A stretch of 64,000 nt of DNA, taken from the NCBI RefSeq assembly GCF_000189635.1, contig NW_002476154.1:1-64000 (forward strand), read 5' to 3'. The translations under genes and the position numbers were made by a program. This document shows, in pieces, positions 7,114 to 42,640 of the stretch; the stretch's first letter is position 1, and each line of letters opens with the position of its first letter. Source of the stretch: Tetrahymena thermophila SB210 (lineage: Eukaryota > Ciliophora > Oligohymenophorea > Hymenostomatida > Tetrahymenidae). The notes under the pieces are model-generated. The model did no database searches. It saw only the letters and a program-made list of their open reading frames with translations, and was not told where the DNA came from.

Positions 7114-10100
7114 TCATTAAAATGCATTATTTATTTTGATTTATTTAGATGAACTATCTAAATTGTACTGTTTGTGTATCGATGACCTTGTTTTAAAACT
7201 ATAGGATTCAACTTTCTAAGGCTCTTAAACTAGATTATTTTATTAGCTAGTTTCTATGATATAATCTTGACCATCTTCATCAACATCTTCAGATTGCTAT
7301 TTTTTATACTTAAAAAGCCTGAAAACTGAATTATTCTTTTTATTAAGTTCAAATTTGGGACTATTGCACGAGGACGCTTTCGAGGATAATTACATATTAC
7401 CAGTTAATGCTTTTATATAAAAATTAAATTAATACACTGCTTAAATTAAAATAATTACGGTAGCATTAAGTATCTGAATTAAGGTTGCTTGATATAGCTT
7501 GTATGGGTTATGTAAAATTATTATTTAAGTTGCTAATATTTTAGTTAGCTTTGTCATGAATAATTTTACTGATATTTGATCTTAAAAATTTCCATCTAAA
7601 ATATACTTTACTACTAACTTAACTCAAGTTATTTATCTATTTAATGTACCTTTTTGGTAAAATTTTTCTTAAGAGAAAATTTAATCCTCTTCCGAACCAA
7701 GAATTTTTATCGCTTGCTTTATAAGCCAAAATAATACAAATTAAGTGAATGAAAAATAGAAAATCTAAAGCCATAATGAAAGCCTCCATAAAAAATTAAG
7801 TAGAGCTTTTATCTTAAATAATACTTACCAAAAAGACTTTAAAAACTATTAAACTATAAGCTGTTAATTCAATATAGGTGATTCTTAATTAAATAAAAGG
7901 CTTTATTTAAAAAACAAATTTTAAATAGAATACAAATATGAAAATGATTAGAATTGTTGAAGAATTTATAAAAGTATTTGATAGAAGAATATGAATATAA
8001 ACTATCAATATTTTTTTATAAATTCTAACAAACTCCCAATAATAATACCTTTCTTTTAGTTCCCCATAAAAGTAGCCAAGATTATATTTTGTGGAACATT
8101 CGTTTAAGCGCTTTCTTTTTTTGATCAGCATAAATAGGAAAACCAAAGGTATAAAAGACCATAGAAACAAGATTATTAATGAATATGGATATATGAATGT
8201 TTTTATGTTAGTTTAATCACATAGTTAGGTTAGATCATTTGGATTGTACTTCTTAGATCCTATTTATCTGCATGTTAATGAATTAGAAAAGTAAGAAATC
8301 TATTCTACTTAAAAGAAAGTAAATAATATCGAAAATAAAGTGATATAATGATGCTTTTTAATTACTTTCTTACTAAAAATTTGAATTATATAAAAGCAAA
8401 GATAAAGTAGACTAATAAAGAAAATAGGAATAAAGCTTTAAATCAAGGCACTAATAACTATTTTTCCAGTTTTTTCTATAGTTTATGCACTAAGAATACA
8501 TTCTATACCAAAAGCAAATTACCTATTTGTTTATCCAATTAAGTTTCCAAGAATGTTTATGTTTATAGGTATAAGTTGAGGCTGACCAATTAAAATATAT
8601 GATAATTAAGTATAATTCACAATAATTTTTATAAAAAAACCTGATTTATCTTTTATTGAATTTTTAGAAACTGGTATGATTTTCATTGCTCTTAAATAAT
8701 AGCATCTTTATGAAAAAATAAATTAGTTAATAAAAACTTTTAAAGTAAAAAGTAAATATCCGATGAAAAAAAATCCTTTTAAAACCAAGAAAGCATATTA
8801 TAATGTACTTTAAGAGCAAACTTCACACTTCCCTAATTAAAATTGTTAAGTATACCTTTTATTTTTCCAAATTTATCCAATTGTGTCACACTATTCGCAT
8901 AAAGGACCCATATAACCTTCTATACATCCTTGCTGATTCTATGGATTTTATTCTTAGCATGATCCAATATTAGAATCGCAAGCCAATATTTCATCAGAAA
9001 AATTATCACTTCTCCAATATCCATTTTTCAACATAACTGTTGCACCTTAGCAGCTTATAGCTGAAAAAGGACATGAGTTGCATTCATTTTTAACACCATT
9101 TTGCTATTGGTTTTACGAATTTTTATATAAAATCTAAGGATCTATAAGTTAATATGAACCAGACTAACATTATTTACAAGTATTTATTAAATTTGTTGAC
9201 TATTATATTATCTCTCCCAATTTACATTATCGAAAAATAATTTACATAGCAATTGGTTTTTGAATTATTGATTAAGAGTAAATATTAGAGCTTAAAGTAA
9301 ATATTTATAGGCTTGATAAAACTCCTTAAATTTAAAGACCTGTGAGCTCAAAGCTTTGGCTTGTTTCGTTATATTGATTATAATTCAATATCTTTTCTCC
9401 TATAAGCTAGGTTTATTAAATATTTTAATTGGAAATTTATATCTGAATGTTTTATAGCTCTTATTGAATATCACTAGGGTATAAATTGCTAGTAAGTGTC
9501 TCTTTAGAAAAAGTAAGGTATCTATTATAATTATCTATTATATATATTCTCAAAGCCAAATACCCTCCACTTTAGAAATTTTTTATTTCAATATATTTTT
9601 AATAATCAGATTAATAAAAGGATGGAACTTAGCTCTGGTTGTTCTAAAACTCAAATTCATAATCAGTACTTTAATTTGGGTCATAATAATTTTAAATTAT
9701 TAGATTTTGCAAATAAGTTGCTGAATCATTGCCATAAATTTCAGCTTAATTATTAAACACATTTACTTAAAATGGGAAATTAGTGGGTATGTTTAAGTAT
9801 TAAGAATTTGTTTAAACTATTCTTATTCCTCCACCTATTAAAGCATAATTATTTACAATTTAAGTGTCTTTATCAAATTTTATTTAGCAAGTTCCAATAT
9901 TTTCTATATAAAACGCACCTCCACTACCTTTGGCTCTGTTTTTTGAAAACTAAGACTCATTTAATTGAATTAATGAAATCACATTTTTAAATTAAATAGC
10001 TCCACCATTTTAAGCTGTATTTTTATTGAATATAGATTTAGAAAATTAAACTTAACTAGATGAATCTATCAAAAATCCACCTTCATTGCTAGTAAAGTTA

Positions 10101-13100
10101 ATATAGTTTATTTAAACATATGAGCTTTTTATTTAAATCAAATGCTATTAAATAACATTTTATATTAATGTTGTGTTTTAAAAGACTATTAAGTCGTCAA
10201 TAAAAGTAATTAATTAACTCCCTTAAGTGTAATTACTGTATGATTATATGATTGCTATACCAATATTATTCTGAATAAAAGAATCAGCAAAAAAAGAATA
10301 GGAGCAACCAAATAGTTAAAAGAGAGCTAAATTATATATATTATAGGAACTACCTTAAAGACTAGCCTAATTTTAAGTGATGCTAATATTTCTTAAATTC
10401 AATTAGCCGATTAATGAAAATCTAAAAATTTAATTAACATCTATGTTTTATTATATTTAGACGTTTTTTATTGTTACATTTTTAACATCATAAAAGTCAA
10501 AGAAATATTTTTAAGAATTAGGCTAAAATATACAGTTCTATATTATCAAATCTGAAATCTCCACAACTTTAATATTCATGAATTTTAAAAGACTACTTTC
10601 TTATTTTCCATAGTTTTATAATCCGCTGAGTTTAATCTAATTTAGATTTATATGGTCAATATCTTGGAATGTCAATTATGTTAAACTAATCTGCTATTAT
10701 ATTACAGATATATTCTACCAGGTAACATTTTAAGTATTTTGGTTGAGATTTATTTAGTAAGTGGAATTAGAACTATTATTAAAAATGAAAAAGAAATCTT
10801 AAAGGTAGAAATTTTACTGAGAGAGAGTATTAAAAGTATCTTGTGTTATAGTTAAGTTATTTGAACTTAAGCTTTAAGCAGACATTATTACTTAAACATT
10901 TTATATATTTTCCTATGTCATAAAATTATTGATTGTTTCAAATTAGTTTCCTGGTAATTAAAGAAATAATATATTATTCCATGTATTTTAGTTCATCAAA
11001 ATTTTTCCAAAAAAGCTAAAAGCCTCAACATATTTTGGGACCAAAGAAGTTATTATTTATTCAGCTTATAGTAAACTAGAGCTATTAATAATAGATGCAC
11101 ATTAATAAGCATTTTAATCTTAATAGATGCTTAAGCTAATATTATCCTAAAATACTCCTGATTAATGTAATATGTATAATTTTATGATGTTTTATTCTTA
11201 ATTGTAAATGTATCCTAAAAATCTTGGATATTAATATGACTATTAGGAAATAAGTTAAAAAGTGTTGCCTTGCAGCAAATATAATTCATACCTATTTTAA
11301 AGTAATAATACAATTTAATTATCATTTATGGCATGATAGTCTAAAATAAAATCCTAAAAATTGTTTTTTTTGATAATTGTCAATAGCTATATTGTTTAAC
11401 TTCTTGTATATACATTGATTTAGTAGCTACAGGATGTCAAAATAAAGGAGTCTGTTAATTTAATCTAATTTCCTTGGTCATTTGGCAGCATTAAAAAAAT
11501 TTCTTATTATTTAGTATCAATATTCCAAACATATACTCTTTTTTAACCACTAAAAAAGAAAATATATTTAGAATAAATTTGGTCAAAAATAAAATTTTAT
11601 AGGTTTATATTTATTTCTTCATTTACTAGTTAAATTAGGTTAATTTACTAAATTATTTATTATTTATTTGAATCTATAATTATCAACAATCCTCCATTTG
11701 TTACATATAGAACTTGAGGTTAAGATTAATTTTATTCATTAACTATTAATTTAATTACAGATATATTAATTGCAGAAGTATCTGTTGATAAATTATAGTA
11801 CTTACATGATTTATCTTTTAAATTATATTAAAGCATTTACCCATTACTAAAACCTACAAAAAGTGTACTTTTGCTTCTATTTGAAGCAAAATTTGTTATG
11901 AAAATTTGTATATCTAGCTAGATTATATTTATTATAGTTGCTGATTAAATATTACAATGAATAATCTTTTTATCATATGTAAGATATACATCATTTAATA
12001 AGAAGCGATAGAACTATATTTAGTTTAATGTTAGCTAATTTGGTAGAATATTATTATTGATAGAAGATTAATATAGTTAATAAAAAATTATTTAGTTGCT
12101 GAACCCATAAATTAAAATATCTCGAGAAGTATCATATGATACATCTATAGGTGGTTAATTAAATGTAGTTTCATAGGTCATAGAGAAATTTTAATACTTA
12201 AGAACATTAGAATCTTTGTTGATAATCAAAAATTGTATTTCTTAATTACTTACAGGAAAGGAAGTAAATAATTTTGGAGATTCTGTTAGCCCAAATTAAT
12301 ATTTAACACCTTCTTTGCTATAATTAATTTAATAAATAGAAGTTTTACTATATACAAAAATGTTATTATATATATTATCAAAAGTGAAACCCAACAATTA
12401 TTCATTTCTATCAGAAACCTCACTTATCTTAAAGTTATTTCTAATATTGTATTCATTATAAAGCTCATAGACATAAAAATTACCTACATCATCTAAAAAT
12501 GACAATTTTGTTACATTTTCATCATAATAAGTTTATACTACTAACCCTACTTTATTCCAATTAAAAGCACCAATTATTTTTCCTGCTAAAGATTAAGAAG
12601 GTATATTATACACATATATCTATGCAAATAATGAGTTATTAGTATAAAGAATTATTTAAGAAAGCTACTTAATAAAAAGGTAATTTAGTATGCTTAAACC
12701 AGAAGGAGCTTAAATCTTACAACTTTCTGAAAAATTAATCTTATTTAAGAAAACAACATCTTTTAATAATTAAATAAAAATTTTAAGATTATATTTGTAG
12801 AAAGAAATAAACTTAAAATGAAAACAAAATAGAATTAATTATATTAGCTTATTTGAAATATATTTAGTACCTAGAATTATAAAATATTGATAATCTAAAA
12901 AGATAAAATGAATAAATTATTTTTCTTAAAATATTTTAAAATGTAAAAATAACTAATAAGCAAATTCAAATTCAATAAATATTTTACATTAAGAAGAATG
13001 AAATATGATGTAGTCTTTTTGAACTTCAAAGCTTGTGAATATCCCATAATTTTCAGACAAAGTGTATATATAGGTACCAATTAGACTATAAACTTATATT

Positions 13101-16100
13101 TAATCATAATATAGATAAATATTTTGATTATTTTCATCTATGCCTATATTAAATTGATTCTAAAATCCATTTAAGTTAACTGTTAACTTTATCTTATTTA
13201 AAGTTTTATTTATTATTGTAAATTAAGTAAGAGAATTGCTACATACTATAAAATTTTAAGTATTTTTGCATTAAATGAATGTTTTGTCATTCGAAATAAC
13301 ATACAACAAGTTCATTGAAGAATCCAACTTTACTAATTAAGACCCGTATATATAAAATTATTAACTTAGATCATCAAAAATCCATCCATTTATTTATTTC
13401 ATTCCTTTATAATAATATTTTTTATTAATATTACCATACATTGATAAAAGTATTTAGTTATAGCTCCAACAAATAATACTTTATAAGCTAGATATTTCAT
13501 TAATAGCACTAAATGGAGTATCATATTTTGATTATGGAGGAATTAATTCTATGAAAGAGTTTGTAAACAAATTAAATGAAGTTATTTAATATTTTGTTCT
13601 TACAAAATACATGTAAAGAGTTGTACTTTATATAACCTCTTATATTTCATCATCTTAGTGCTAGTTCGACATAAAATATTGGTTATCAAGTACTTAGTAT
13701 CTTTTAAATTAGTACTTTAAAGCACATGATAATCCTTATTATGTACCAACATAATCCAAATAGTTATTATTGGAACCAATTTTCATTTTAGTTTAAGTTA
13801 TCTATGTAGCACTTTACACATAATCATGCCCACAAGTGTATATAATATTTCTACTTAAATCAAATTAATACTCTTCGTGAACTGTAAAAAAATTTAATTA
13901 CATGATATGTTTAACATGATAAAAAACTTTTCCTGCATCGTTAACAATTTTTATAGGATCATCTATGAAAGGTGAATGTTAATAAGTGTAGGTATTTTCA
14001 AAAGAAGATGTTGAATTTTTTTGAATAGCATGAATTCTCACAACAGGATTTGATGTTGCAGAGAAACCTACTAAGAAATAAACTGAATCATCATTAATAA
14101 CTCTCTTAGCTTGGTTTACAGAGATTAGGGCGACATTTGGAACTTGATGAATTAATTCTAAAGAAAAATTGTAGATATCAAAATTTTATTTATTATCAAA
14201 TGTTAATATTTCTTCAATAATAAATTAATTGCTAATGACATCTTAATCGGTAGTAAATATTTAAACACAATTCACATATGTAATTTAATTTTAGGTGTTT
14301 AATTAGCTAATCAATTTGGATTGTTATTGTTATTAATCTATTGTTATTTAATATATTTAGATTTAGAATGTGTTATATACCACTAATTTTAAATCACTAT
14401 TTAAATATATATTTTATATTTAATTGAATTAGTTATTATCACATTAATTAAATAATTACTAAAAATCAGAAGATAGTATCGTTATGCAATTATTATAGCT
14501 TATAGCTATCTTATCAAAATTTATAGAAAAAGAATTTATTTTGCTTACATCTGAAAATTAATTAACTATCAATTATAAAAATGGATTTATTAAAAAAATG
14601 ATATTATTCATCTATGCAACAACAAAATTATTTGAAAATCTTCCAATTTACAAACATTAAAGTTAGTTATTAGAAATAACTCTAATTAATTAGATATCAA
14701 TTCCTTATGAAGTATCATAGAATATTATATCTCCATTTTAGTGACAAGTTATTAGTAAAGGAGGTTGATAAATTTAAATCATAGAATTTACTTAAGAATT
14801 AGGAGTTGGGTAGGGCATTTAATAATTATCTACTATTTTTATTTCTAATTAAGAAATATAGGTCGGACTTTATCTAATTATTTAAATTTCAGAATTAATA
14901 AATACAAGATCATATGACTAACAACTTTCTTAAATAATTGTATCACTATACATATTTTTTATTTTTAATAATTATTAATTTTAAAAGGTTGGGAAATTTG
15001 TTGTTTAATAGATTTAAAATGTTGAATCTGATTATTAGAAATTATATATCTTTAAATTTAACAAATCATCAAGGACAATTATTTAATTGTTTTTGCTTAA
15101 AAAATTACCCACTTCAAAATCTAAAATAATATCATTGCTGTATTCATCAACAAACTTGGTTGCTTATGAGCTAAGGTTGTAATTAAAAAAAGAGCTTTAA
15201 GTCAGAATTATTAAATAAATATTATATGAAGGATTGTTTATTTCAATTATTTTCCCTTTTAGAATTTTCTGATTTGAAATTACTATTAAACATAAGTTAT
15301 CTTGAAAATTAATGTCTAGCACTCCATTTTAATGTATTGAAAAATACCTGTATGAATAAGATGTTTCTAAGATAGATATTTATGCACTAACATTTGAGAT
15401 ATCACAATTAATTAAACCATTTATTTATAGTAAATTATTTTAATAAGTAAGCTATTAAACAATTATACTTTAAGCATTTTATTAAACTAATAAATTTGAT
15501 TGGAATGATAATTAACTTCCATTAAAGCTAATTTTAAATATATTTGAAGTTAAAGGCAAATTATTTTTTAAGTCATAGATTATTTAGAAATTATGCTAAT
15601 TATTGATAGTTGATCTTATTAGCATAAATTAATTATTCAATTTAAATAACTTTGATTGTTGATCAATAAAAAATTCATTTGAATTATAAATTAGTTTTCT
15701 ATTTTCTGTAATAACATCCCAAATAAAAATTTGATTTTTAATTGTTATGACTATAATATTTCCATCTAAACTTATAACAATCAAGTCATTACTAAGGAAA
15801 TTAGTATGTCTAATCAATTAAGCAGATACTTTATCATAAATAGATAAGTATCCTACCTAAATAACAACGTAGTATATGTTTTAGTATACTAATATTTACT
15901 ATGGAGTATCAGACCCAAGGAAGTTCTACTATGTTTTAAATTATGATGAACATTATAAAAGTTTTTTACAAATTTTCTGAAGAGGATCGCCAATGTAAAG
16001 TGGACTGCAAATTGATACACAGTTTCCAAAAGATTCATTTGTTTAAGATTCATCTATTTATAAGTAGAAGCCATCTAAGCAAGCAGAATGAACACATTTT

Positions 16101-16444
16101 TTTGTTATTGTATCTAATTAATAGTTCTAGTAACATTCAACACAAATAAAGCTATTTATCTAATTATCTTATTTAATGCAATTTAAACATCCAATACCAC
16201 AATTATTATTGTTTTAGCAAATACAAAGATATATTGCTATGAACTAAATGATAAAAAAATTTGGAAATGTTCTTTATTTCATTTTTTTATTTAGTTTTTA
16301 TTGATACTATTTCTTATATATCTTTAAGTATTAAGATAAATAAATAACTTTGTGTTTATTTTTGTTAATTTAAATATATTAATAGCACTTACTAATATCA
16401 TTTGCACTAAAAAGAAAAATAGATAAAAATATGATTAAAGTCAT
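7114..16444 (-). CDS. Giant receptor-like membrane protein, tandem copy 1
   Basis: Roughly 3000-residue secretory-pathway protein. A first 52-nt exon (16393-16444) encodes a hydrophobic signal MTLIIFLSIFLFS; a 156-nt intron then leads to the Cys-rich start with CGIGCLNC. Next come propeller-like segments with an IWD motif (FIWDVITENRKLIYNS, about 15.7 kb) and a beta-helix region with polymorphic-membrane-protein-like repeats such as NTAQNGGAI, NRAKGSGGAFYI and NNYALIGGGIRI (about 9.7-10.1 kb). A second Cys-rich/EGF-like block follows (NGYWRSDNFSDEIL and GYMGPLCEQCD, about 8.9-9.1 kb), then about seven hydrophobic helices (about 8.8-7.4 kb) and a charged tail ending at TGA 7114-7116. A second intron lies near 12.78-12.96 kb; more are possible. 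Ligand and function are unknown; the layout suggests a cell-surface receptor or channel-like protein. The first-exon choice is inferred from splice phase. Confidence 0.82.
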
Positions 16445-18684: not shown

Positions 18685-21600
18685 TCATTAATATGTAAAT
18701 TTTTCATTCATATCAAATAATTTAAAACTTTTAGTTAAGGATTATTAGACTGAAGGTCTTGTCTAAAAAGAATATTATTCAACTTTTTTTGGATCTAATT
18801 ATTCTGTTTAGTCATCTCCTTGGCTCTCACCTTCATTTACATAATCGAAAATAGTCTATTCTTTTGGATATTAATTATAATTATATAATTGAAAGCTGTG
18901 TTTCTTTTTTGGATTCTCTATTAATTATTTAGGGCTAGAAGACTATGAATAAGTGTTAGTATTTATGTTGCTATTTTAAAAAACTAAGAAAATTTTATAA
19001 AAATGTGATAAATATTTTAATTAATTTTACGAAGTCGCGATAATTGATTCTAACTTAATTTATTAGCATCAACACATTTGTCCTTTATATTATCTATGTT
19101 TTGATTTGCCTTTTTTTAGATTATATGGTATAAATTTGATCTTATAAATTTCCATCTAAGGTATGCTTTAAGACTCACTTTTCTAAAATTAATTATTTTT
19201 AATGCAATTGTGATTGGTAGAATTTTGAAAATAACTTTTTTCAATATTCTACCGATAATAGATTACTAGTTACTAGCTTTATATATTAATATTATGCTTA
19301 TTAATGAAATAAAAAATATATAATCTATTGCTAAAATAAATAATTCGATAGTGAATTGGGTTGAGTTCAAATCCTATGTAAGAATTTTTAAAAGCATTTT
19401 CAAAATTATAAAAGTATAAGCTATAGTTTCGCTCTTAGTAATTTATTTAGAGACAAAAGGTTAGAAATAGAAAACAGCTTTTATATAGGTTCCAATAATA
19501 ACTATAACTAAAACTTAAGAAAAATTGAAAAATGAACCAGACATAAAGATATGCAGATAGACTAAAGCCACTTTTAAGTACATTCTTACAAATTCCCAAA
19601 AGTAGTATTTGCTCTTCAATTCACCATAAAAGTAACCTAGACTATATTTTGTCTTGCATTAATCTAATTTATTTCTTTTTTTAAAGAGCTAATATAAAAA
19701 TGCCAATGGCATTATAGACCATCCAAATAAAATTATTAATGAATATGGTAAAATGAAAGCTTATATGCTCTATTTTTCGCATAACTAAGTTAAATCATTA
19801 GGATTATATTTCTATGAACCTATTTATCTACAAGTTAGAGAGTTAGAAAAATATGATATTTGCTCTAGCTAAAAGAATATATATAATATTTAAAATAGTG
19901 TCCAGTAATGATATTTTTTTATATATTTTTGGCGTATCTATGAAATTACAAATAGTAAAAAACTCATAATTACTATAAAAACTACAGGAATTAAGCTCTA
20001 AATCAAGGCATAAACAGTTACTTTGCCTAAATTATTGAATGCATCTATACTTATGAGGCAATCTATTCCTATACTTAGTTACTTATTAGATTTGCCAATA
20101 AAATTACCAAGAAAATCAAAGCTAACTGGAATAATTTAAGGTTATTCAATTAGGAGTGATGATAACTAAAGATAGTTTACTATTATTTTAATAAAAAACC
20201 CTGAATAATCTTTAACAGAATTTTTAGAAATGGGAAATATTTTCATAGCTCTTAAATAGAAGCAAGTTTATGAGTAAGTAAATTAATTTATGAATACTCT
20301 AAGAGTAATTACGAAGTAAGCTATCAAAAATATTGCTTTCAGTATAATGAAGAAATACTAAAGAGCCTATTCTGAGCATAAATTACAAAATCCAAGCTGT
20401 ACTTGTTAAGTATATCTTCCATTATCCCAGATTTATCCAGTTATATCACATTATTCACATAGAGGACCTATATATCCTTAAACACATCCTTCCAAACTCT
20501 AAGGATTTTCAGCTTAACATGAATTAGTGTTGGTATTACATTATAAAATTTCATCTGAATTGTTACCACTTCTCCAATATCCATCTTTAAGAATTATTGT
20601 TGATCCCTAGCAAGAGTTAGCAGAGAAAGGACAAGAATTACATTAATTTTTTACCATATTTTCTTATTTAATTAATGATTGCTATTATAAGGTTTAAGGA
20701 TCGATTAGCTAATATGAACCTACTTCACACTATTTACAAATACTTATTTCTGCTGTTGATTATTGTATTATTTCGCCTAATAAGCATTCCCTAAATTAAA
20801 TTAACATTAGTATAGGTTTTTAATTTTATGATTGTGACAATACACTAGAACTTATAGAAAATATTTGTTATGTTTCTAATGTACCATATATTTATAACCC
20901 AGTGAGTTAATAGCTTCTGCTGTTAGCATCATATTAATTGTAATTTAATATCTTTTCACCTATTAATTAACTCTATTAAATGTTTGAGTTATCAATCAAA
21001 ATTTCAATAGCTTTTAATTCTAACTCTATTTCTTGTGGATATAATCCATTTGTTAGATTTTCTTTGGAAAAAGAAAGATATCTATTATAATTATCAACAA
21101 TATAAATTCTTAAAACAAGATAACCTCCACTTTAGAAGTTATTTATTTAAATAGACTTTTAGTATTGAGATTAATATTTAAGTGGTAAATCACTTTAATT
21201 ATTACTAAAATTAAAATTATAAGATGTTTACTAATCTGGTATTTTATAATTTTAAAAAATTAAATTTTATAAATAAGTAGTAGAGTCATCACCATAAATT
21301 TCTGCTTTATTGTTGAAAACATTATGTTAAAAGGGGTATCTTTATGGTATAATAAGCGTATCTGCACTTTTCTTTACTATTCTTACTCCTCCTCCTATTA
21401 AAGCAGTGTTATTTTAGACTTAACTATCAGCATCAAATATAACTTAGCAAGAACCAATATCTTCCATATATATAGCACCTCCACTACTTTTTGCTTAATT
21501 ATTTAAAAATTAAGATGAATTTATTAAAATTTATGTAAGGATTCCTTAAAAATATATTGCTCCTCCATTTTAAGCTTAATTTTAAATAAATTAGCTATTC

Positions 21601-24600
21601 GAAATCATAACTTTATTTGATAAGCTGATCATAAGACCTCCTTAATTTTAAGAATGTTTTAGGTTATTAATTTCTACAAGAGAGCTTCTAATCTAGTAAA
21701 TTGGTTAGGTATTGAGTGAATTATTATTAGAAATAATTGAATCAAGTTATAAAATATCATTCATCAGGGTTATTAGCTCGTTATTTTGAGTGTAATTACT
21801 ATAAGTTTATAAAATAGGAACTTAATTGTTATTTTAAATAACAAAATTCTATAAAAAGCTTTAATAACACCCATACAATTAGAAATAGGCTAAATTTTAA
21901 TCATTCTAAATACTTGATTAAAGTAAACGATTTTTAGATGAAATAGTATTTCCTATTACTTAAATATTTTTTAAAGTGAGATTTGAGACTAGTGAAAAGC
22001 TAAAAATTTAATTTATATTTTAATTAGACATAATTTTAACCAAATTAATAGTTATATTCTAAACATCATAAAACTCAAACAATTATTTTTATGATATTTA
22101 TGAATAAAAACTATCTTAAATTATCAATTCATTAATTAAAACATTCTGGATTTTTATAAATTTAATCAGACTACTTTGCATATTATTTTAAAAATTGCTA
22201 TTCTGTAATGATTATAGATTTATTTAATTTAGAATAACTTATTTGACATTTTGTATAACTATCTCAGTTGCGTTAATTTATTATTATTAAATTGATATAT
22301 TTTGCCAAATAATATTTTAGATATTTTAATTCAGAGAAAATTAATTTGTTTGATTACTGTTTTAAAAAACTAAGCTATAGTTACTTAGATAAAAAGTTTA
22401 TTATTATATGTTTTAGAAAGTATCTTATGCTAAATTTAAGCTATTTGATGTTTAATTTTAGGGTGATGTAATTATTTAAGTATTTTAAAGAGATTATTAT
22501 TACATAAATGTATTTATCATATCATATTAGTCTCCTGATATTTATAAATAAATTAAATTATTCCAATTAGGTTAATTAGTTAATATTCTTCCATTAAAAC
22601 TAAATGCCTCAGATTACTTAGGAATAATAGATTATATTTATTAAATTGCAGTTAAAAAATTCTAACTATTTACTATACTTGCGCACTCTGTTACAGAATT
22701 ATCATCGTAAATTCCTAAACTTATATTTGTTTCGTATAATTTTGTTTAATCAAGTATGTAAATTTTTAAGAACTTTGTTACCTAATTGTAGATATATCCT
22801 AAAAATCTAGGATATACAGATTGCTATTGAGAAATTAACAAGTTCTTTTTTTCTTGAATTAAAAATAACTCAAATCTATTTTATAAAAGTATGATGATCT
22901 AATTGTCATTTATTACTTAGTAGTTGAGAATAGAATCATAAAAATTATTTCTTTTAATTATTGTATAAAGTTAAATATTTTTAGCCCTTGAATACACATT
23001 TATTTGATAAAAGCATGATGTTAAAATCCACAAATTTGTTTGTTTTATATAATTTCCTTAATCGTTAGGAAGCATCAAGAAATTTTCTTGTAAGTTAGAC
23101 ATGAAATTCCAAGTGTAGATCTTCTTCTAACCACTAAAATAGAAAATGTACCTTGAGTAAATTTTATCATAAATAAAATCTTACAGATTTACTTAATTGT
23201 CTTCATTAACCAGACTGATTAGATCAATTTTTTTTATTAGCTAGTTATTATTAATGTCTATTAAAATTGCTTGACCTCCATTTGTAACAACTATAGCCTA
23301 CTGTTATGATTAATTATCATCATCTATTAATATCTTGATTACAGATATGTTTATTGCTTATGTATCTGATACAGTGTAATATTTTGAATTTTAGTTATTT
23401 AAATTATACTAAAGTAATTGTCCATTACTAAATCCAACTAGCAAAATATCTTTATACTTATTAGATTCAAAGCTAGTCACAAAAATATGAGTATCTAATT
23501 AAATAATATTTATTATACTGGCCTATTAAATATTACAATGTATTATCCTTTTGTCATATGTGAGATATACATTACTCATTAAAAAGAGATAGAATTAAAT
23601 CTAGTTCAGCATTTATGTATTAGGTATTAAATTATTATTTGATGAAAATTAATATTTTTATGTAAAGCTAAGATGATTTGAAAATGCGTAAACTAAGACA
23701 TCCAAAGAAGGATCATAAACAACATCTATTGGTTATTAGTTTAAAGTAATTTCATATTACAAAGTAAGATTTTTATATTTGAAAATGTTGTTGTCATTGT
23801 TTACTACTATAAATTAAGTTTCATACTAGCTAATTGGAATAGGTATAAATAATTTCGAAGGTTCTTTTAACCCAAATTCATATTTAACTCCAGTTTTACT
23901 ATAATTTATTTGATATATTGCGGTTTTGCTATATATAAAAATATTATTATAATCACTATTAAAAGTAAAACCAAGAAGTGATTCATTCCTATCGTAAACT
24001 TCTGTCAATTTGTAATTATTTAGGAGAGCATATTCATTATAAAGTAAATAAATATAAAAATTTCCTGTGTCATCTAAGTAAAGAACTAAGCTTTAGTCTG
24101 AATCATAGTCCATATCTATAACAACTCCTACTTTATTCCAAGAAAATGGCCCTGTAATTTTACCAACTAAATCACCAGCAGGTATACTATATATGTAAAC
24201 TTATGCAAAAAGAGAATTATTACAATAGAACATTATTTGTGAGAGATTTTCCATGTAAATATATTTCAAAATACTCAATCCAGAAGGTGCTTAAATTTAG
24301 CTTTAAAGCTAAAAAGTCTTTCTATCTATAAAAACCATATCTATTTTTTATTTTTATATATTTCATAAATATTAAATAAATATTTTAATTATAATTTTGT
24401 AGAATAAATTTAACTATTATCTGTTAATAATAAAAAAAAAATATTTACATTAGTAAGAGGAGAAAATAACATAATTAGTTTATACTTCAAAAGTATTAAG
24501 AGTGTTAGCATTCAAAGAAATAGTTTAACTAAAAACACCTAGCAGATTATAAACATAGACTTAAGTATCGTAGAGATAAATATTTTATTGAGCTTCATCT

Positions 24601-27600
24601 ATACCTATTTTAAATTAATTTTAGAACCCATTAACTTGAACAGTTTGTATTGTGTTCTTTTTTTTATCAATAATTGAGTACTAAGAAGGAGAGTTACTAC
24701 AAATAATTGTATTTTAAGTGCTTTGACATACTATAAAGTTAAGGTTTTAAGATTCGCTTGAAATATTTAACAAAAATTTAAGATTAGTATCTAATTTTAC
24801 TAAACTAGACCCATAAATGAAGAAATGATTATTTACATCATCAAATATCCATCCATTAATTTGCGAAATTCCCTTAAAATAATATTTCTAATTAATATCT
24901 TCGTATGTGGATAGAAGAATTTAATTGCTGTTCCAACAAATTATACTATTTAAGATTGGTATTTCTGAGATTTATGAGAATGGGGGATCACTAGATAATT
25001 AAGGAGAAAGTAATTCAACAAACTAGTTATTAAATAAATTAAATGAAGATATCTAATAGCTAGTCCTGACAAAATACATATACAAATTTGTACTTTATAA
25101 AACTTATTATATTTGGTCATTACTATGAATACCAGAAAGCACATTCGATGTACTTAAAATATCATATCTTTTTAGCTAATACTTTAATGCTCCTGACAAA
25201 CCTTACTAAGTTCCAGCATAATCCAAATAATTATTACTTGCACCAATCTGTAATTTAGTTTATGTTGTTTAGGTTGCTCCAAAAATATAATCATGCCCAC
25301 ATGTATATGTAATATTTCTATCAAAATCCATTTGATATTCTTCATGCAAAGTAAAGAAATTTAATTGCATTATATGTTTAACATGGTAATATACTTTTCC
25401 TGCTTAATTAACATTTTTTATAGGATCATCAATAAAAGGGGAATATTAAAATGTGTAGTCGTTAGCAAAAGAAACTGGAGAGGTCTTTGTTATCCCGTGT
25501 ATTCTCACAACAGGATTTGCAGATTTTGAATATCCTACTAAAAAGTAAGCATTATTATCATTTACTACCCTTTTTGCTTAATTTACTGAACTTAGCTCTA
25601 TATCTGAGACTTAATGAATTAATTGAAGAGAAGAATCAAAAATACTAAAGCTAAATTAGCTGTCGTAAATTACTACTTCATCGATTGAATAATTATTATT
25701 TAGTTTATCTTAGTCAGAATTAAATAAAACAATACAATTAAAGTATGTGATACTATTTTGAAATGTTATCTTGTTTAAATATTCTGCTTATTATTATTAT
25801 TAAGATTAATCAATATTTATTTAATAAATTGAAATCTCTTATGTTGTTTGAACGTATAATTGTAGATCATTATTTAAGAAAACGCTCTAAACGTTAAAAA
25901 AAAAATTATTATCACACTAATTAAATAATTAAGAAAAATCTGGGGAAAGAATAGTTATACAGTAACTATAACTGATAGCCAGCTTATCAAAATTTAAAGA
26001 GAATGAATTAATGTTTTTTAAATTATTATTTGAATTTACCACTTATTATAAATAAGGGTCAATCAACAAGATTGAGTTATTCATCTATGCCACAACATAA
26101 TTATTGTTAAACCTCCCAACTTGTAAACATTATGCTTATTAATTTTAAATTTTATTTATCAATTTAAAATCAAATCCTGATGAAGTATCATAAAATAATA
26201 TATCACCATTCTAATGACAAGAAAGTAGCAAAGGAGGTTGATATATTAGCACTAAGGAATTTACCTAAGAACTAGGTGTAGGATAAGGCATTTAATAATT
26301 ATCAATGATTTTCGTTTCTAGCTGTGAATTGGAAATAATATTCTTTCGTATTATTTATATTTAAGAGTTCATAAGAGCTATTTCATATTATTACTAACTT
26401 TCTTGAATTTAAATTTGCTGATTTTAATACTATGTTTGCATTTTTAGTAATTACTGGGTAGCAATTAGTGGGAAATTAGTGTATTACTCCAAATTGAATG
26501 TTAGATTGGATGATAGTAGATTATAAATTTGCAATTAATTTAAATTATTCATTATAATTATTGAGTTATTGGCATTCAAAAAATTCCCCACTTCAAAATC
26601 TAAGATTGAATTATTATTGTTATCTGTGATGGTTTACTTTGAAGTTGTATTCAAATTAAAATCAAAAAGTAATTGCTAAGTTAAAATAATCAAATGAATG
26701 CTTGTTGAGATTTCCCCTAAATTAATTAATTTTCCTTTTTTGATATCTTGTTCTTTTAGTTTTATGAGGCAAGAATTAAGACTAAGATTTATTTCAAAAA
26801 TCCCATTTTTATGGATAGAAAAATATTCATCAAGAGATTAAGTATTGATTATTTAAATAGTTTCTCCTACATCTGAAGTATCGCAGATTACTTTGTCACT
26901 TAACATTATCTGTAAATTATTTGAATTTGAAAAAACAATTTATTAAACTATCATAGAGTTTTCAAGTTATTTAAAAGTAAGATTGTTGTTTATTTTAATC
27001 AAGCTATCACTCTAATCTATCGAAATTGAATTAGAGACTATAGATTTACTGTTAACAAAATCATAAATTACTATTAATTGCAATGAGTTTCCATTAACAT
27101 ATTATAACATTATGTATTGATTATTCAAAATTCTTAATTATGTTTATTGATTTATTGATAAATCAGTGCTATTGTAAATATACTATCTCTACCCTGATAT
27201 AATATCCCATAGAGCAACTTAATTTTTATTAGTTAACACAGCGACTAAACCATTTATATTTTAAACTCTTAAATCATTAGATTAAAAGTTTATATGTCTT
27301 ATTAACTGAATTTAGCTTCTATCAAATAAGGATAAATAACCATTTTATACCACGGCGTAGTATATTTCTTAGTAGATGAATATTTCTTCGGGTAAACTTG
27401 AACTGAGAAAGTTTTATTCTGTTTAAAATTCAGAAGAGCATTAAGATAAAAGTACACAGATTTTCTAAATAGGATCTCCTATATAAAGTGGATTACAGAT
27501 AGAAACACAACTTCCCTTAGAATCATCACCTAAAGATTCATCTATTTAAAGAAATAAGTTGTCTTAGCAATTAGAGTAAACGCATTTGTTGCTACTTGTA

Positions 27601-27764
27601 TCAATATTGTATCCTTAATTGCATATGCTGCACTTATAAGAACCTTGATTTTGTTAGTCAATATCACAAATCTTACACCCAACACCACAATTATTTTTAT
27701 TTTAGCAGTAAACCAAGCTAAATATTATTAAGCAAGTTAATGTTGATTTTATAAACCTAACCAT
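18685..27764 (-). CDS. Giant receptor-like membrane protein, tandem copy 2
   Basis: Paralogue of the 7114-16444 gene with the same domain order. It starts with a clear signal peptide at 27764 (MVRFIKSTLTCLIIFSLVYC) directly followed by CGVGC. The N-terminal Cys module ends at CSSEFQTEQNFL, matching CSSQFKTQQNFL in copy 1. In the propeller region, NIFIYSKTAIYQINYSK (about 23.9 kb) aligns with NIFVYSKTSIYQINYSK in copy 1. GGG-type beta-helix repeats lie around 21.3-21.6 kb, and the Cys/EGF-like block with GYIGPLCEQCD around 20.4-20.6 kb. Membrane helices run to about 19 kb, and the tail contains DPKKVEQYSFQTRPS before TGA 18685-18687. An intron is visible near 24.35-24.45 kb at the position homologous to that in copy 1. 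Ligand and partner are unknown. Not every codon was checked for stops. Confidence 0.82.
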
Positions 27765-29059: not shown

Positions 29060-29095
29060 AATTAGAGGAACTCAGAACGAAGGTATACTTATTCT

Positions 29096-30004: not shown

Positions 30005-30638
30005 AGCTAAAAATAACAACTGATATTAATTATTTATTTATTTATTTATTTTTTTCTCATGTTTTTAAAACTTGTTCAGGTTTAAGAGGAAATTTGATAA
30101 TTTTGAATGAAATTGTTTATTTTTATTTTTTAATTAATTAATTAATAAATGCCAAACATACATTATACTTTTATTTTATAGATAAATAGATTATTTATAG
30201 AACATTTTAACTTATTATTTATTAAATTTAAATTTTTTTATGTTGGAATTATATAAAAAATGCAAGATTAGAGGATAATTACTTATTTACATTATATATG
30301 AATAACAACTTTCTTATTTTTAAATTTATTAATCCCTTGAAAATTTTTGCACCAATATTTTTAAAATTAGTAATATAATTTCAACTTATATTTATATAAA
30401 TATTAAAGAAATAAAATCAAATTAAAATTAAAATATCTAATAAATTTAAAAATTTTATTTTTATATCATTTTAAACTCTAAAGATTTTTAAAGTAAAAAA
30501 ATATGTATTTTGTTTTTCTAAACTAATAAAACATATTTTAATTTAGTCTAAATATTTTAAAATTAAAAAATAAACTAAATTCAAACATAAAAAAATTTAT
30601 TTCAATTTATTTTATAAAAAAACATTAAAATAATACTT
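30005..30638. other. AT-rich spacer downstream of giant gene 3
   Basis: About 630 bp of A/T-rich DNA between the transposase relic and the stop of giant gene 3, including a short TTTA run near 30.04 kb. No gene is visible. It may include the right end of the transposon relic. Confidence 0.45.
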
Positions 30639-33600
30639 TCAAAAATTTAAATTAAATAGTCTAAATTAATTTTTAGAATTTAGTCTAACATTAAATTAGT
30701 ATTATTCAACCTTGCTAGGATCTGTGTGTAGGCTCTCCTACTAAGTTTAAGTTTCTTCTACATAGTCTTACTCTATAAATTTATTATTTTCATGCATTTA
30801 ACTGATAGTCCGCAGTTAAAACCTAGAACTTTTTTTATTAAAAGATTTTTTTTATTATAAAATTGGAGTATTTGATGCAGTAGCTTAAAAAGAGCTTAAA
30901 TGTTCATTGAATTAATCTTTTATAATAAATAAAAATATATTTTAGATTTAATTAATAATAAATATATGTTTTTTTTACTTTAATAAGATGAATTATGATT
31001 TTCTAGATTTATGTTAGAAACTTTATTTTTAAGTTAACTAATATTCTAATTAGCTTTGAATTGTATAATATTATGTAAATTTTTCCTGATTAATTTCCAT
31101 CTAATATATGTTTTGAAGCTTATATTTCTTTAGTTTAAAATCTTATTTATTAATTTTTTTGGTAAAAATATTATCATGAATTTTTGAACAACTTTCCCTA
31201 ATAATGAATCATTATTATTTGCTTTGAAAATTAATATGGTAATTGTAAAAGCAAAAAAGAATAAATTATCTAGAGTTAAAATTAAAATATCTATAAATAA
31301 TTTGGATGTACTTTAGTATTGGAAAAGAGATTATAAGAATATTTTAAGTATAATAATTGCATAAGCTAAAATTTCACTACCAAGTATTCCTCTAGAAATA
31401 AAGGGTTTTAGTTTTAGAATAACTTTTATATAAACTGACATTAATATTATTATTAACATATCTGAAGACTCTTAAAAGCTTTATTAAAGCAATATGTGTA
31501 GATAAACAATTGCTATTTTTAAGTACATTCTTATAAATTCCCAATAAAAATATTTATTATTTAGCTCTCCATAAAAATAGCCATATTTATATTTAGTTTT
31601 GCATTCGTTTAGATAATTTCTTTACTTATAGAGTTAATAAGCAAAAATTAAAGGTAATAATGACCATAATAATAAAATAGATGATGAATACATTTTAGTG
31701 AAAAATGAAAGACTAGAGTCGTGGCATAATAAATTCAAATCGTTAGGGTTATATTGTTGGGAACCAATTTATCTACATGTCAAAGAATTTGTAAAGTATG
31801 AAATCTAATTAATCTGATAAAAGGTATAGATTATTTGAAATACCACTATATAATGGTGGCCTTTAATTAAATTTTTAAATAATATTGATGTTATTAAAAA
31901 AGCTAAAAAGAGTAAAGATATTTGAAAAATTGGAATTAAACTCTCAATTAAAGCATAGGTGACTATTTTTCGAGTTCTTATAATTAAACTAGGATCAATA
32001 ATACAATCTATACCTAAGCTCATTTATTTATCTGATGAACCTAAATAGTTATTTAAAAAATTAAAATTCAATGAAATAACTTATGGTTGTTGTATAAGAA
32101 GTTGTGATAGCTAAAAATATGTGATCAATATTTTTATATAAAAGCCTGAATAGTCTTTAATCGAATTTTTTGAAATAGGAATTAGTTTTATGATTCTTAA
32201 GTAATAGCATCTCTAAGAAAAAATAAATTAATCAACAAAAACTTTCATGGTAAATATAAAGTATGCTCCTAGTAAAACACCCTTTAGTAGTATGTAAAAG
32301 TATTAAATTAATCTTGATGCACATATTTCACACTGCTTTTATTGAATTGATTTAGTATATCTCTTTCCGTTCCATACCTCTCCTATGATATCGCATTATT
32401 CACATAGAGGACCCATATATCCTTCGACACATCCATTTTTATTTAAAGGATTTTCTGCTTAGCAAGAATTATTATTTGTGTCACATTCTAAAATTTCATC
32501 TGTTGTTTCACTACTTCTCCAATAACCATTCTTTAGTTATATAACTGAACCTTAGCAGCTTAAAGCAGATACAGGACAAGGATAGCATTAATTTTTAATA
32601 TAATTTTCTTAAGAATTCTATGATTGTTAGTATAAATATTAGGGATCAACTAAAGAATATGTACCTGTTTAGCAAAATTTACATATGCTTATCTAATTAG
32701 TTAAATCTTATATTATTTCTCCTATTTAGCACTCTCTGAATTATACTTCCATCATTACAGGAAGTTGTATTTGAGATTAAGAATATATATTAGAGCTTAT
32801 GGAGAATACTTAAGCTGTCTATAACGCACCCTAAACCTACAAACTAGTAATTTCATAACCTAAGCTTGTTGAATTATATTAATTATAATTTAATATCTTT
32901 TCTCCAATCAGTTATGAATACTTTGTATTTATATTATCAAAAAGTATCTAAATACTTTTTAACTCAGTCTCAACATCGCTAGGATAACTTCCATTTATCA
33001 AATTCTACAATGAGAATGAGAGGTATCTATTATAATTATCTACTATATATACTCTTAAATATAGATTAGATCCACTTTAAAAATTATTTATTTTTACATA
33101 TTTTGAATAGTATTATTTGTAATCTTTGGGTAAATCTGACTAGTTGTTGTAAAATTCAAAAATATACTCACTTTTTTGTTATTAAAAATCATATTTTTAA
33201 ACTACTATACTTTGCAAATAAGTAGTAGAGTCATCTCCATATATAGTAGCTGTATTATTATATACATTTTCATAAAAAGGAAACTTTAGAGGAATATTTA
33301 AATTTCCAGATATACTACTTGTAATTCTAAGTCCTCCTCCTATTAATGCCTTATTTTCATACACTTTAGTTTAAATATCAAAATTAATTAAACATGTTCC
33401 AATATCTTCAAAATAAAGTGCCCCACCACTACTAAATGCTGTATTATGATAAAAAGAACAGCTTTTAAATTATACTAGTTGATTTATGTTTGTAAAAAGA
33501 ATAGCACCTCCATTCTAGGCAGTATTTAAAATAAACAAGCTGCTTGAGATAGTTACTTATTGTGATAAACTTATAATTATACCACCAGTATTCATATAAT

Positions 33601-36600
33601 AATTTAATTTATCTATTTAGACATAAGAGCTCTTTATTTCAAAAAGTTATTGCTATGTATTATTATTAGAAAAAACTTAAAAATTTTCAATTTTTAAAAC
33701 ATCGTCAATTAGTATAATTATTTAATGGTTAGTAGTAAAATTGCTATATGACTTTAATATAGAAATTTGAGTATTATTTTAAATTATAAAGTTATTAAAT
33801 ATAGAATTTTAGCATCCAAATAACTAAAATAAGCTCTAAGTACCAAATAATGCTGTTTAAATTTTTAAAAACAAATACTGCTAACTGCTAAGCTAATTGT
33901 AAACAATTTATACGCTATCAATTTTCAAATTTTAAACTAAAGAAAATTTAAAAATCTAAGAAATATCTTAATTTTGATTAATCTGTATATTTTATATTAT
34001 AACTGTATTGATATTGAAAAAATCAAAGAAAATCCCATCAGAGTTGTTAGTTAGTTAGCATCCTTCTATTACAAGTTATTAAATGTAAATTTGTGTGATA
34101 TTAGAAAACTGCATTAAACTTGTATTCTTTAGGGTTTGCAATTACTAAATACTAAGTTAATTGAAAACTACCTATTCAATATTGCTAAATACTATTCCTT
34201 ATTATATAATTTATTGGTTAATTATGCTAATATTCTACCAAACTATATTTTTAATATTTTAATTGAATGAAATTTAGTTTGAAAGACTATTATTTTAAAA
34301 TACAAAATTATAGTTGCTCAAGTAAAAATTTTATTATGATACCACCTCAAAGGTATTTTAAGTCAAAGTCAAATTGTTTGTTGTTAAGTCGATAGGATTG
34401 ATAAATACTTAAGTATTTTAAAATTAAGATTATGTGATGAATTAATTTATGCTTTCAAACTATTCACTATTAATGTACAGATAAATTATATTATTCCAGT
34501 TTTGATAGTTACTAAGTATAGTTCCATAAAAGCTAAAAGTCTCTGCTTGCTTTGGGACTACTGATTATAGAAGTTGTTCAATATTCATTAAATTATCACT
34601 ATTAATTAAGCTTGCACATTATGCAATATCATTCTACTCATATATGTTTAGACTTATGTTATTTTCAAATACTCCTAGTTAGTGCAAACCATATATTTTA
34701 AGAAATTATATGTCACTATTGTATATATATCCCATAAATCGTGGATATGTGTAAGATTATTAAGAAATCAAATTAAATTGGTTATTTTAAAGTAAAAACA
34801 ATTCATATCTACTATCAAAAAAAATAATTATTTGGCTATTATTAATTATTAAATAATCTATTATATTATCATAAAAGTTATTTCTTTTGATAATTGAAAT
34901 TAATTGAATCTTTTCACTTAGTGAATATATATTCAATTAAAAAGTATTTGATGTCACAATTAGAGAATCAGTCATTTAGATTTTATTTCCTTAATTATTT
35001 GATAACATTAAAAAACCTTCTAATTTACTAGTTAGATAGTTCCAGACATACACTTTTTTTTATCCTCTAAAAAAGAATATGAATCTATTATAAGTTATAT
35101 CATACTTAAGATCTATTAAATTAATATTAAATTCTTCATTAACAGAGGAAATTAGATTTATTTCTTAAATTAATATTTATTAGGTTATATTTATTTGTTG
35201 TACCATACCACCATTTGTTGCAAATATGGCTGTCTATTGCAAATTATTATCTATGCAAATAGATACTATAGATGTGTTAATAGTTGAGTTACTTGATATG
35301 CTATAATATATATATGATTAATCTAGCAAATTGTACTACAATAGGCTTCCATTGCTTAGTCCGATTAAAATTATTTTATTATTCAAATTGGATGTATAGT
35401 TAGTAACGAACGATTAAGGATCTAATTCAATTACGTTTATTATGCTTCCAGTTGTAATATCGCAATGAATAATCTTTTTATCATAAGTTAAATAAATGTT
35501 ATTTTGTAAAAATTTAAAAAATTTAACATCTTTAAGTTAAATTTATAATTTTTATTAGTTATTAATTTCAAGATTTTAGTAATTCAAGTAAAATACAATA
35601 CAATCACTAAATCCTACAACCAAAACATCTTCTGTATTTGCATACAACAAATCTATCGGCATTTAGTTAAATGTGCTCTCATAAATAATTGACTGATTTT
35701 AATATCTAAATAAATTATTATCTATATTTAGTAAAAGGAATTAGCTCTCTTATTATGATATAGGAATTTAGGTGAATTATTTAAAAGGCTCATTTAATCC
35801 ATATTGATATTTGACTCCGAATTTACTATAATTAATTTAATATATAGAAGTCTTGCTATATACAAACACATTATTGTAGATTTAGTTGTATGTAAAACCT
35901 ATTAATTACTCATTTCTATCTAGAACTTCTGTTATTTTGCAATTATTCAAAATATCATACTCATTGAATAATTCATAAATATAAAAATTTCCAGTATCAT
36001 CTAAGTACATTATGTCATTTTAGCTAGGATCATAATCTAGACCAATCACTATACCAAACTAGTTCCAAGTAAAGGCTCCTTATATTTTCCCAGCTAAAGT
36101 GGTTGAGGGAATATTGTAAATATATACTTAGGCGAATAATGAATTATCACAATAAATAGCAACTTGTGATAGAGAATCCAGATAAAGATAATTTACAATA
36201 TTTAAACCAGATGGTCCTTAAATTTGACTTTCTATAGTTTTTTATATTCTATCTATCACAATCAAATCTATTTATTTATAAATTTTGTTAATTTTAAAAA
36301 AGAAAAATAAAATTAAAATTACTTGATGGTGAAAATAATACCACAAATGACTGATGTATTTCGAACTTCTAGAATGAGTTAGAATCTATCTATATCATTT
36401 GATTATAAATACCTTGAATACTAAAAATTTATATTTATGAGTCAAAGAGATATAAGCTTTGATTTTCATCATCTATTCCTATTTTAAATTAATTCTAAAA
36501 TCCATTTACTTAAATACTTTGAATTAATTTATTTGTATTCTTATCGATCAAAGAAAACTAAGTAATTGAATTGCTGCATATAAGAATATCTTAACTATTT

Positions 36601-39600
36601 TCGCATTAAATGTATTTAAGATTTGAGGTTTAGCTTGATATTGTTTTTAACAAATTTAAACTCGAATCTAATATAGCAAATGAAAATCCATAAACATAAA
36701 TTAATTTACGAGAATCATCAAAAATCCATCCATTAATTTAACTCATCTTTTTATAATAATATTTTTTATTAATCTCTCCATAAGTAGAAAGTAGTATTTA
36801 GTTTTAATTCCAGCAAATGATGCTATTTAAATCCTAGATTTCCTTGATCTGGGTAAATGGAGAATCAGATGAATTTTAAGGTTTTAAAATTTCAATAAAT
36901 GAATTTGTAAACAAGCTAAAAGATGTAATTTAGTAAGAAGTCCTTACAAAATACATAAATAAATTAGTACTTTGTATTACTTCTAGTATTTCTTCATCAG
37001 AAGCTTTTTGGCTAGAGAAAATATTTGATTCATCAAGAGTATTGTATCTTAAAAGTTAATACTTCAAGGATCCAGAAAGACCTTACTATGTTCCAGCATA
37101 ATCTATAAAATTGCTTTAAGATCCTAACTTCATTTTAGCTTAAACTGTTTAGGTAGCTCCTACAATGTAGTCATGTCCATATGTATATGTAATATTTCTA
37201 ACTAAATCCATTTAATACTCCTCATGTACAGTGTAAAAATTCAATTGCATTATATGCTTAACATGATAAAATACAGAACCAGCACTATTAGTGATTTTCA
37301 CAGGATCATCTATGAAGGGAGAGTACTAAAATGAGTCAATTTTGTAAGAGACAGTCGAATTTTTTGAAACTGCATGTATTTTTACTACAGGATTATCTGA
37401 ATCAGACAAACCAATCAGAAAATAAACAGAGTTATCATTTATTACCCTTTTAGCTTGGTTAACAGTAGTCAAAGCAATTTTAGAAATTTAATGAATGATT
37501 TAAAGCTAATTATCATAAATTACAAAATTTTATTAACTATCAAAATATACAATTTCGTCAATCGAGTAATTGTTTTTAATTAAATCCTAATCATTATTAA
37601 ATATTGTAATGCAACTGAAATACGTAATCTCGTTTTAGCTTTATATTTGACTCAGTTAATTTATTTGTTAATTGGGAGAAATTTAAATCTGATATAAGAT
37701 AATTTATTAGTTTGTTTAAATAACTATTTTCAAATCTGAATTCAAAAATATATTTATTATTTAAGAATAATAACTATCACATTATTAAAACAAATTTGAA
37801 AAATCTTGGGAAAATATAGCTATACAATTTTCATAACTTATTGCCAATTTATCATAGTTAAGTGAAAAAGAGTTTATGTTGCTCAAATTTATCTAATTTT
37901 TTTAAATTTATAGGTAAGGGTCAATAAGTAAAATCTGTTAATTCATTTAAACAGCAATGTCGTTGTTTGAAAATCTAGCAATTTGCAAACACGACTAAGG
38001 TTGGAATTGCATGCGAATAATAAGTTACATTTCTATACCAGAAGATATATCATAAAATACGATATCGCCATTTTAATGGCATGTAACAAGTATTGGAGGA
38101 TTATAAATTAAAGTTAAAGAATTCACTTAGGAACTAGGTGTAGGATAAGACAGTTAATAGTTATCAACTATTTAAATTTCAAGTTATGAATTTTGAAGGT
38201 TTTCTCTAATTATTTAAATTTATTATCCTATCATAATTGTTTGATATTAGGTATATTGCTCTAATGTATAGTTAAATTAATATTTTTATTGTATTTTTTT
38301 AATTTAATTAGATGGGGTATTCATCAAAGCCAAAGAATAGTAAATTTCAAATTAATTATTTAGTTAACTAATATTGTACACATTTATTAACTAATCTTAC
38401 AATATAATAATTTAGTTATCACCATTTAAAAAATTTCCAATTTCAAAGTCTAATATTGAATTATTTGTTATTTTTTAAAGTGATGAAGTTATTATATTAA
38501 AATTAAACAAATTTTATTATTTCATAAATATGAAATATTAGTTAATTTAACCTAAATTATCAGACGTTTCTATCAATTTCCCTTTTTAAATTCCTTGATC
38601 AATATACTTTACAGAACATAGTTAAGAGTTAAGATTTAGAATTAAAACTCCATCAGAGTGTATAGAAAGGTATAAGAATTATGAATTAGTTTTTTATATA
38701 GAGATAAAACTACCCACTTAATTAGTATCGCAATTTGAGGTATTTCCTAACTATATGCTTAACTCTTTTTATTAATACTACAGAATTATTTGAGAAACAG
38801 AAATACCATATTAATTTTGAACAATTAGCAAATCATTCTCAATTTAAAATTATTTTTAATCTATATTAATTTAAATTAAATTTGATAACAATGGCATCTG
38901 ATTAACTTAATCATAGATTATTTATAAAGTCAATGTTATTGAATCAACTGACTAGATTAAAAAAAATTGATTCATAAAACTAGATAATTAAGTCTTAGAA
39001 GTAAAATTAAAGCTAGCATTATTCATAATAAAAGTTCTTTGATTGTTAATAATATCCCATAGAATTACCTAATTATTATTTGTGAGTACAATTATTTCTC
39101 CATTTATATTTTAAATTTTTAAGTCATTTTAAGTTTAATTGACATGAGCTATTAGTTAAAGTTTTTACTATCCAAAAATAGACAGATACCCTTACTATAT
39201 TGCTACATAATAATCTTTCTAATAAACAAAAAAGTCTTAAGCTATGTCAATACCAATAAAATTTGGTTAAGTAGCAAATGAGGATGAACATTAGATAAGC
39301 TTTTTGCATACTTTTTAAATGAGATCGCCTATATAGAGTGGATTACAAATAGATACACAACTTCCATTTGAATCGTTATTAGAATTTTCATTAATTTAGA
39401 AGTAGAAGTTATCTAAGCATTTTTAGTAAACGCAAACATTATTTGAGCTATCAAATTAGTAACCCTCAAAACAAAGGTTGCATTTGTAAGAATTGCTGTT
39501 AGAGTCTACTGCACAAAATTAGCAACCTATCCCACAATTGTTTGAACTTTAACCTAGAATTAAAACGATATTGATTAAATTTATTAATGCTACAATAATC

Positions 39601-39602
39601 AT
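30639..39602 (-). CDS. Giant receptor-like membrane protein, tandem copy 3
   Basis: Third paralogue of the array with the same domain order. A signal peptide begins at 39602 (MIIVALINLINIVLILG), followed by NNCGIGC and an N-terminal Cys module with CVSICNPLYIGD as in copies 1 and 2. In the propeller region VYSKTSIYQINYSK is conserved (about 35.85 kb). Beta-helix repeats lie about 33.3-33.6 kb. The second Cys-rich/EGF-like block (NGYWRSSETTDEIL and GYMGPLCEQCD) is at about 32.4-32.6 kb. Membrane helices follow to about 31 kb, and a shorter tail has DPSKVEQYQFNVRL before TGA 30639-30641. An intron near 36.28-36.33 kb matches the position in the other copies. Function is unknown; the family resemblance is to large ciliate surface proteins. 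Not every codon was checked. Confidence 0.82.

Positions 39603-40425: not shown

Positions 40426-42640
<2,215 letters not shown>

Follow-up and report, generated by a model that had tools for sequence, protein, structure and literature searches.

Giant tandem paralogues under purifying selection at a macronuclear chromosome end of Tetrahymena thermophila belong to a large family of putative multi-pass surface proteins

Introduction

The nearest published analogue of the genes reported here is MRC2, a large protein of the Tetrahymena thermophila mating-type recognition complex (MTRC) that combines a pectin-lyase fold with eight membrane helices (PMC10901506). The genes in question, hereafter A, B and C, follow one another in the first 40 kb of a 64,000-nucleotide stretch of strain SB210 (RefSeq assembly GCF_000189635.1, contig NW_002476154.1, positions 1 to 64,000), which we call the window and which is part of the chromosome designated C335. 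A first-pass annotation of this DNA had presented them as receptor-like genes of unusual layout, with a beta-helix joined to a bundle of membrane helices; given the published layout of MRC2, it is not unusual for this organism. Comparison with MRC2 is made by layout only, and the two differ in that the account in PMC10901506 gives 92-212 kDa for the MTRC proteins and, in the part available to us, mentions neither a propeller nor a Cys cap for MRC2.

Two further proteins, MTA and MTB, resemble A, B and C in having a large N-terminal extracellular part, followed by a Cys-rich furin/GFR-like segment and a multi-helix domain contained in one terminal exon, but they are described as having five helices, a head-to-head gene arrangement, mating-type-specific N-termini and a somatic assembly by DNA rearrangement (PMC10901506, PMC3608545). 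No such head-to-head pair occurs among A, B and C, which all lie on the same strand. The polymorphic membrane proteins (PMPs) of Chlamydia are bacterial autotransporters, and their repeat (PF02415) shares with our family GGA-type repeats in a predicted beta-helix; however, the family's matches to PF02415 are short and local only, and A, B and C are eukaryotic proteins predicted to be polytopic. Across the Tetrahymena genus, WD40 and GFR Cys-rich domains are reported to count among the seven most frequent domains in species-specific genes, a class rich in tandem duplicates (PMC6564038). The expansion described below therefore fits a known trend, that of genes from the same genus, expanded and often in tandem, although the combined architecture is not described in the portion of PMC6564038 at our disposal. 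Among the matches listed in open-licence literature, no publication naming the family was found.

Results

Spliced models in genetic code 6 yield three intact genes on the minus strand, of 9.0-9.2 kb each and 27.2 kb summed, in keeping with the 27 kb or so first estimated. Gene A (7114-16282; exons 16282-12988, 12759-7459 and 7409-7114) encodes 2,963 amino acids, gene B (18685-27764; exons 27764-24449, 24340-19031 and 18983-18685) 2,974 and gene C (30639-39602; exons 39602-36323, 36267-30979 and 30916-30639) 2,948. The gaps between them measure 2,402 and 2,874 bp, and the interval 7114-39602 extends exactly from the stop codon of A to the start codon of C. Their reading frames are open across about 2,950 codons. 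With code 6 the window has open frames as long as 3,100 codons, while none reaches 200 codons with the standard code. The splice sites were inferred from sequence alone. Intron 1, whose common position had already been noticed, interrupts all three genes in phase 1 at the same protein position (12760-12987 in A, 24341-24448 in B and 36268-36322 in C, minus strand). A second, 3' intron is likewise common to the three and in phase 1 (7410-7458, 18984-19030 and 30917-30978, respectively, minus strand), and it sits in the tail, downstream of the last membrane helix. Because this intron is included in the models, the tails of B and C can be aligned to the homologous tail of A.

The spliced proteins align from end to end, with identities of 56.0% between A and B (2,946 aligned positions), 51.3% between A and C (2,921) and 51.9% between B and C (2,935). 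Since no full 100-column block of alignment falls under 0.32, homology covers the full length of the proteins, and the descent of these same-strand giant genes from one ancestor, at first argued from short motifs, now rests on 2,921-2,946 aligned positions at 51-56% identity. At the DNA level, comparison of the window with itself returns matches down to E 6e-106.

The first-pass annotation spoke of a tandem triplication, which describes the three neighbours correctly but understates the family. When exon 1 of B was used as a probe against its own genome, 42 scored rows from 64 candidates were obtained, that is at least 41 loci with the one on contig C116 counted once. Coverage of exon 1 is nearly whole at 20 loci and amounts to about 490-840 residues at 10; the other 11 match over fewer than 330 residues and so may share the architecture only in part. 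With neighbours defined as lying at most 25 kb apart from start to start, whatever the sequence between them, 22 of the 41 loci (three of them short matches) fall into eight same-strand clusters, on C335, C11, C345, C110, C21, C326, C45 and C46. In all four relatives that were fetched, the architecture extends from close to the N-terminus as far as the last helices, and a frame change or stop occurs at the site of intron 1.

In an exon-1 tree of 19 rows, which omits one of the two C116 pieces (L015), the array genes form with C116 the clade (C,(A,(B,C116))), with 99-100% ultrafast bootstrap. The closer relative of B is therefore on another contig and not among its array neighbours. This relative (L022, C116:262600-272599) is about 77-81% identical to B and has one frame break, in exon 1. 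Clusters elsewhere contain younger pairs, such as the one at 425k/435k on C11 and the near-identical pair on C345. The latter (L006 and L007) consists of tandem members on a 15.5-kb contig whose exons 1 are 99.8% identical, and it may represent either a very recent duplication or an assembly artefact.

Substitutions were counted by the Nei-Gojobori method with code 6. Among A, B and C, nonsynonymous (dN) and synonymous (dS) values are 0.34-0.40 and 1.9-2.2, respectively, for a dN/dS of 0.18-0.21. Younger pairs, which are less saturated, behave alike: the C11 pair has a dS of 0.285 in exon 1 and a dN/dS of 0.19, B compared with its C116 relative gives 0.19 in part of exon 1 and 0.28 in exon 2, and the C345 pair gives 0.18, a value resting on only five differences. 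In 150-codon windows, which cover the three younger pairs and not A, B and C, the top dN/dS is 0.52. Purifying selection is thus seen in every pair tested (0.18-0.28). Furthermore, identical nucleotide runs among A, B and C reach 24 nt at most, which, as a crude test, speaks against recent conversion among them. Taken together, the three genes look old and maintained, neither homogenised nor pushed to diversify.

The predicted layout comprises a signal-like segment, a module of 11 cysteines, some 1,500 residues of possible WD-type propeller, beta-helix repeats, a block of 13 cysteines, about seven to nine helices and a tail. Of the domains first proposed, the two Cys blocks and the multi-helix membrane region are visible in the sequence itself, motif and repeats support the beta-helix, and support for the propeller is weak. 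The N-terminal hydrophobic segment exceeds the hydropathy threshold in B and C; in A it lies below and is discernible by eye. The 11 cysteines of the N-terminal module are invariant in 16 of 16 aligned family members (an exon-1 alignment made without the near-duplicates L007 and L010 and without the C116 pieces), and the 13 cysteines of the block preceding the membrane region are invariant in seven of seven (an exon-2 alignment of A, B, C and four relatives).

For the approximately 1,500 residues that follow the Cys module, a beta-propeller is suggested by the exon-1 family profile, whose best matches in PDB are WD-repeat proteins (four of the five listed, all close relatives of each other, with E of 0.16-0.25 only). 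Pfam points in the same direction, since four of the six families that weakly match exon 1 of the 16 members are of the WD40 or propeller type, each matching a single member, with a best E of 0.0052. The beta-helix is supported by PMP repeats, which match six of the seven members in exon 2 at E up to 1 (best 6.9e-5), and by an internal-repeat score of 38.6, where 20 column shuffles gave at most 20.2; sequence searches of PDB with exon 2 returned no match. In the C-terminal region, nine family-averaged hydropathy peaks stand out, five strong (1.78-2.35) and four weaker (1.05-1.52), compared with a maximum of 0.98 in the rest of exon 2. The tail, about 175-190 residues long, would lie in the cytosol if the number of helices is odd.

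C335 measures 258,519 bp and carries telomeric repeats at both its left and right ends; it is therefore a complete macronuclear chromosome, and the window opens on its left telomere (1-301, 50 copies of a CCCCAA-type repeat). In agreement with T. thermophila as the source, a telomerase reverse transcriptase of this genome has no substitution relative to PDB chain 6d6v_A, the T. thermophila enzyme, in two segments of some 100 and 135 residues; before the first segment the frame runs out of the exon and the match breaks off. Both ends were read on 17 member-carrying contigs, several of them fragments of 13-30 kb and three with a left end read as N: only C335 and C145 have telomeres at both ends, and C325 has a single one. 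For C60, C398 and C39 one end apiece was read and proved telomeric, the ends of C65, C405, C139 and C438 being left out. As most contigs are uncapped, no rate of end enrichment can be given. On C11, C116, C216 and C249 (contigs of 159-871 kb), exon-1 matches are 36 kb or more away from both ends, and more than 170 kb on C11 and C116; three short divergent matches, on C60, C398 and C39, are over 130 kb away from the ends of their contigs. By eye, the left end of C326 (L028) and the right end of C216 (L051), two contigs with family members, show similar-looking sequence in opposite orientation.

Discussion

We consider that A, B and C are probably ancient tandem duplicates within a large, ciliate-expanded family of giant multi-pass surface receptors or adhesins, kept by selection and without switching. 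The three would have been made from one family member, most simply by unequal crossing-over in the germline. Each protein, of about 340 kDa, is predicted to enter the secretory pathway and to expose an ectodomain of about 2,400 residues, with a Cys-rich cap, possible WD-like propellers, a beta-helix and a membrane-proximal Cys block, anchored by about seven to nine membrane helices and ending in the tail of about 175-190 residues. Homology, gene structure, family size, clustering, selection and branching order are documented here; folds, topology and surface location are predictions. At the surface, each paralogue could act as a stably encoded receptor or adhesin for a ligand of its own outside the cell, be it prey, another cell or matrix, and contact might be relayed as a signal into the cell via the membrane bundle. 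The paralogues would be retained by purifying selection, with no variation by switching.

Several observations weigh against one part or another of this reading. The internal-repeat score of the putative propeller region is 26.5 in exon 1 against a maximum of 30.1 in 20 column shuffles, and 20.7 against 22.5 in residues 1-560 of exon 2; as neither score beats its shuffled control, the propeller is put forward here as a suggestion only. Its best PDB match, at E 0.16, is weak as well, and among the members' matches listed no family reaches the Pfam cut-off in exon 1. In exon 2, PF02415 (Chlam_PMP) is the only family to come near its cut-off, and it straddles the curated value of 20.6 bits, with 20.7 in one scan and 20.3 in another, the latter of which did not find it in gene C. 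The weakest helix peak hardly exceeds background, and dS is saturated among A, B and C, which makes their ratios rough. Finally, the telomere-capped contigs hold six full-length exon-1 members (three on C335, two on C145 and one on C325, a contig of 55.5 kb in total), and every one of these is within about 65 kb of a telomere, a mild point in favour of the first-pass annotation.

This last point brings up the near-telomeric array of variable surface proteins evoked in the first-pass annotation. Such an array would be made of copies close to the telomere that are expressed singly and diversified by recombination, as in some parasites, and it would accommodate tandem, large, predicted surface proteins less than 40 kb from a telomere, the position of the six full-length members on the three capped contigs, and the report that innovation centres of T. 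thermophila include germline subtelomeres, species-specific and tandem genes being concentrated near germline centromeres and telomeres (PMC6564038). We nonetheless judge it very unlikely, because every pair tested is under purifying selection, the copies are old, A, B and C have at most 24 consecutive nucleotides in common by the crude test used, and relatives sit deep within contigs, with the C11 and C116 matches more than 170 kb from either end. Furthermore, the germline chromosomes of T. thermophila undergo breakage at Cbs sites, and new telomeres are added to them in the somatic nucleus (PMC5182062). Ends made by such programmed breakage mean that a macronuclear end need not equal a germline end and is no evidence for a germline subtelomere. 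The case also cautions against taking a telomere in macronuclear DNA of ciliates as more than weak support for an array of subtelomeric antigens. That A, B and C lie near a chromosome end is most probably coincidental. Antigenic variation was thus discarded as best explanation on grounds of selection, copy age and the absence of long identical tracts.

Other readings address the function of the family. It might belong to the conjugation machinery, as large MRC2 relatives acting in mating-type recognition or pairing, an idea prompted by the similar layout of a beta-helix and about eight helices in MRC2 (PMC10901506) and by Cys-rich blocks akin to the furin/GFR-like ones of MTA, MTB and MRC1 (PMC10901506, PMC3608545). 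We hold it to be unlikely: the likeness to MRC2 is judged from described layout, proteins of about 340 kDa contrast with the 92-212 kDa given for MTRC proteins (PMC10901506), and tens of loci exceed the needs of one complex. It appears quite improbable, too, that the family forms a carbohydrate-active or structural surface coat, with the beta-helix serving as a pectin-lyase-type enzyme or glycan-binding scaffold and not in a signalling receptor. While the repeats are of beta-helix type and a carbohydrate modification is proposed by the authors of the MRC2 study (PMC10901506), the match is to PMP repeats with no lyase family listed at E up to 1, and the large membrane bundle would be left unexplained. 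Decay of redundant copies, for which the exon-1 frame break of the C116 relative could be invoked, is extremely improbable for A, B and C, open as they are over about 2,950 codons with a dN/dS of about 0.2.

Receptors or adhesins maintained by selection therefore remain our preferred reading, and the family offers a well-defined, tractable set of candidate receptors of giant size in an organism that serves as a genetic model. Should it prove homologous to MRC2, the mating-recognition machinery would fall within a wider family of contact sensors. As a speculation to which we give little weight, the family (at least 41 loci in the one-exon search), coding for receptors of about 340 kDa with an ectodomain and a membrane bundle, might be a ciliate repertoire for contact recognition of prey, kin or mates, with MRC2 as one small specialised cousin and the arrays as a germline workshop for new specificities.

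Other features of the window

The array is flanked by two related protein-kinase genes (1662-2525 and 40428-42053, minus strand), which are 40.6% identical in an alignment of 330 positions (E 5e-51). A gene for an mRNA capping enzyme (5240-6844, plus strand) is found between the telomere and the array, and a papain-family cysteine protease with an I29 propeptide domain is encoded further on (54836-55966, plus strand). Two young tandem DNA duplications are also present, at 49008-49790 (about 390 bp at 89% identity) and at 53676-54794 (about 580 bp at 86%).

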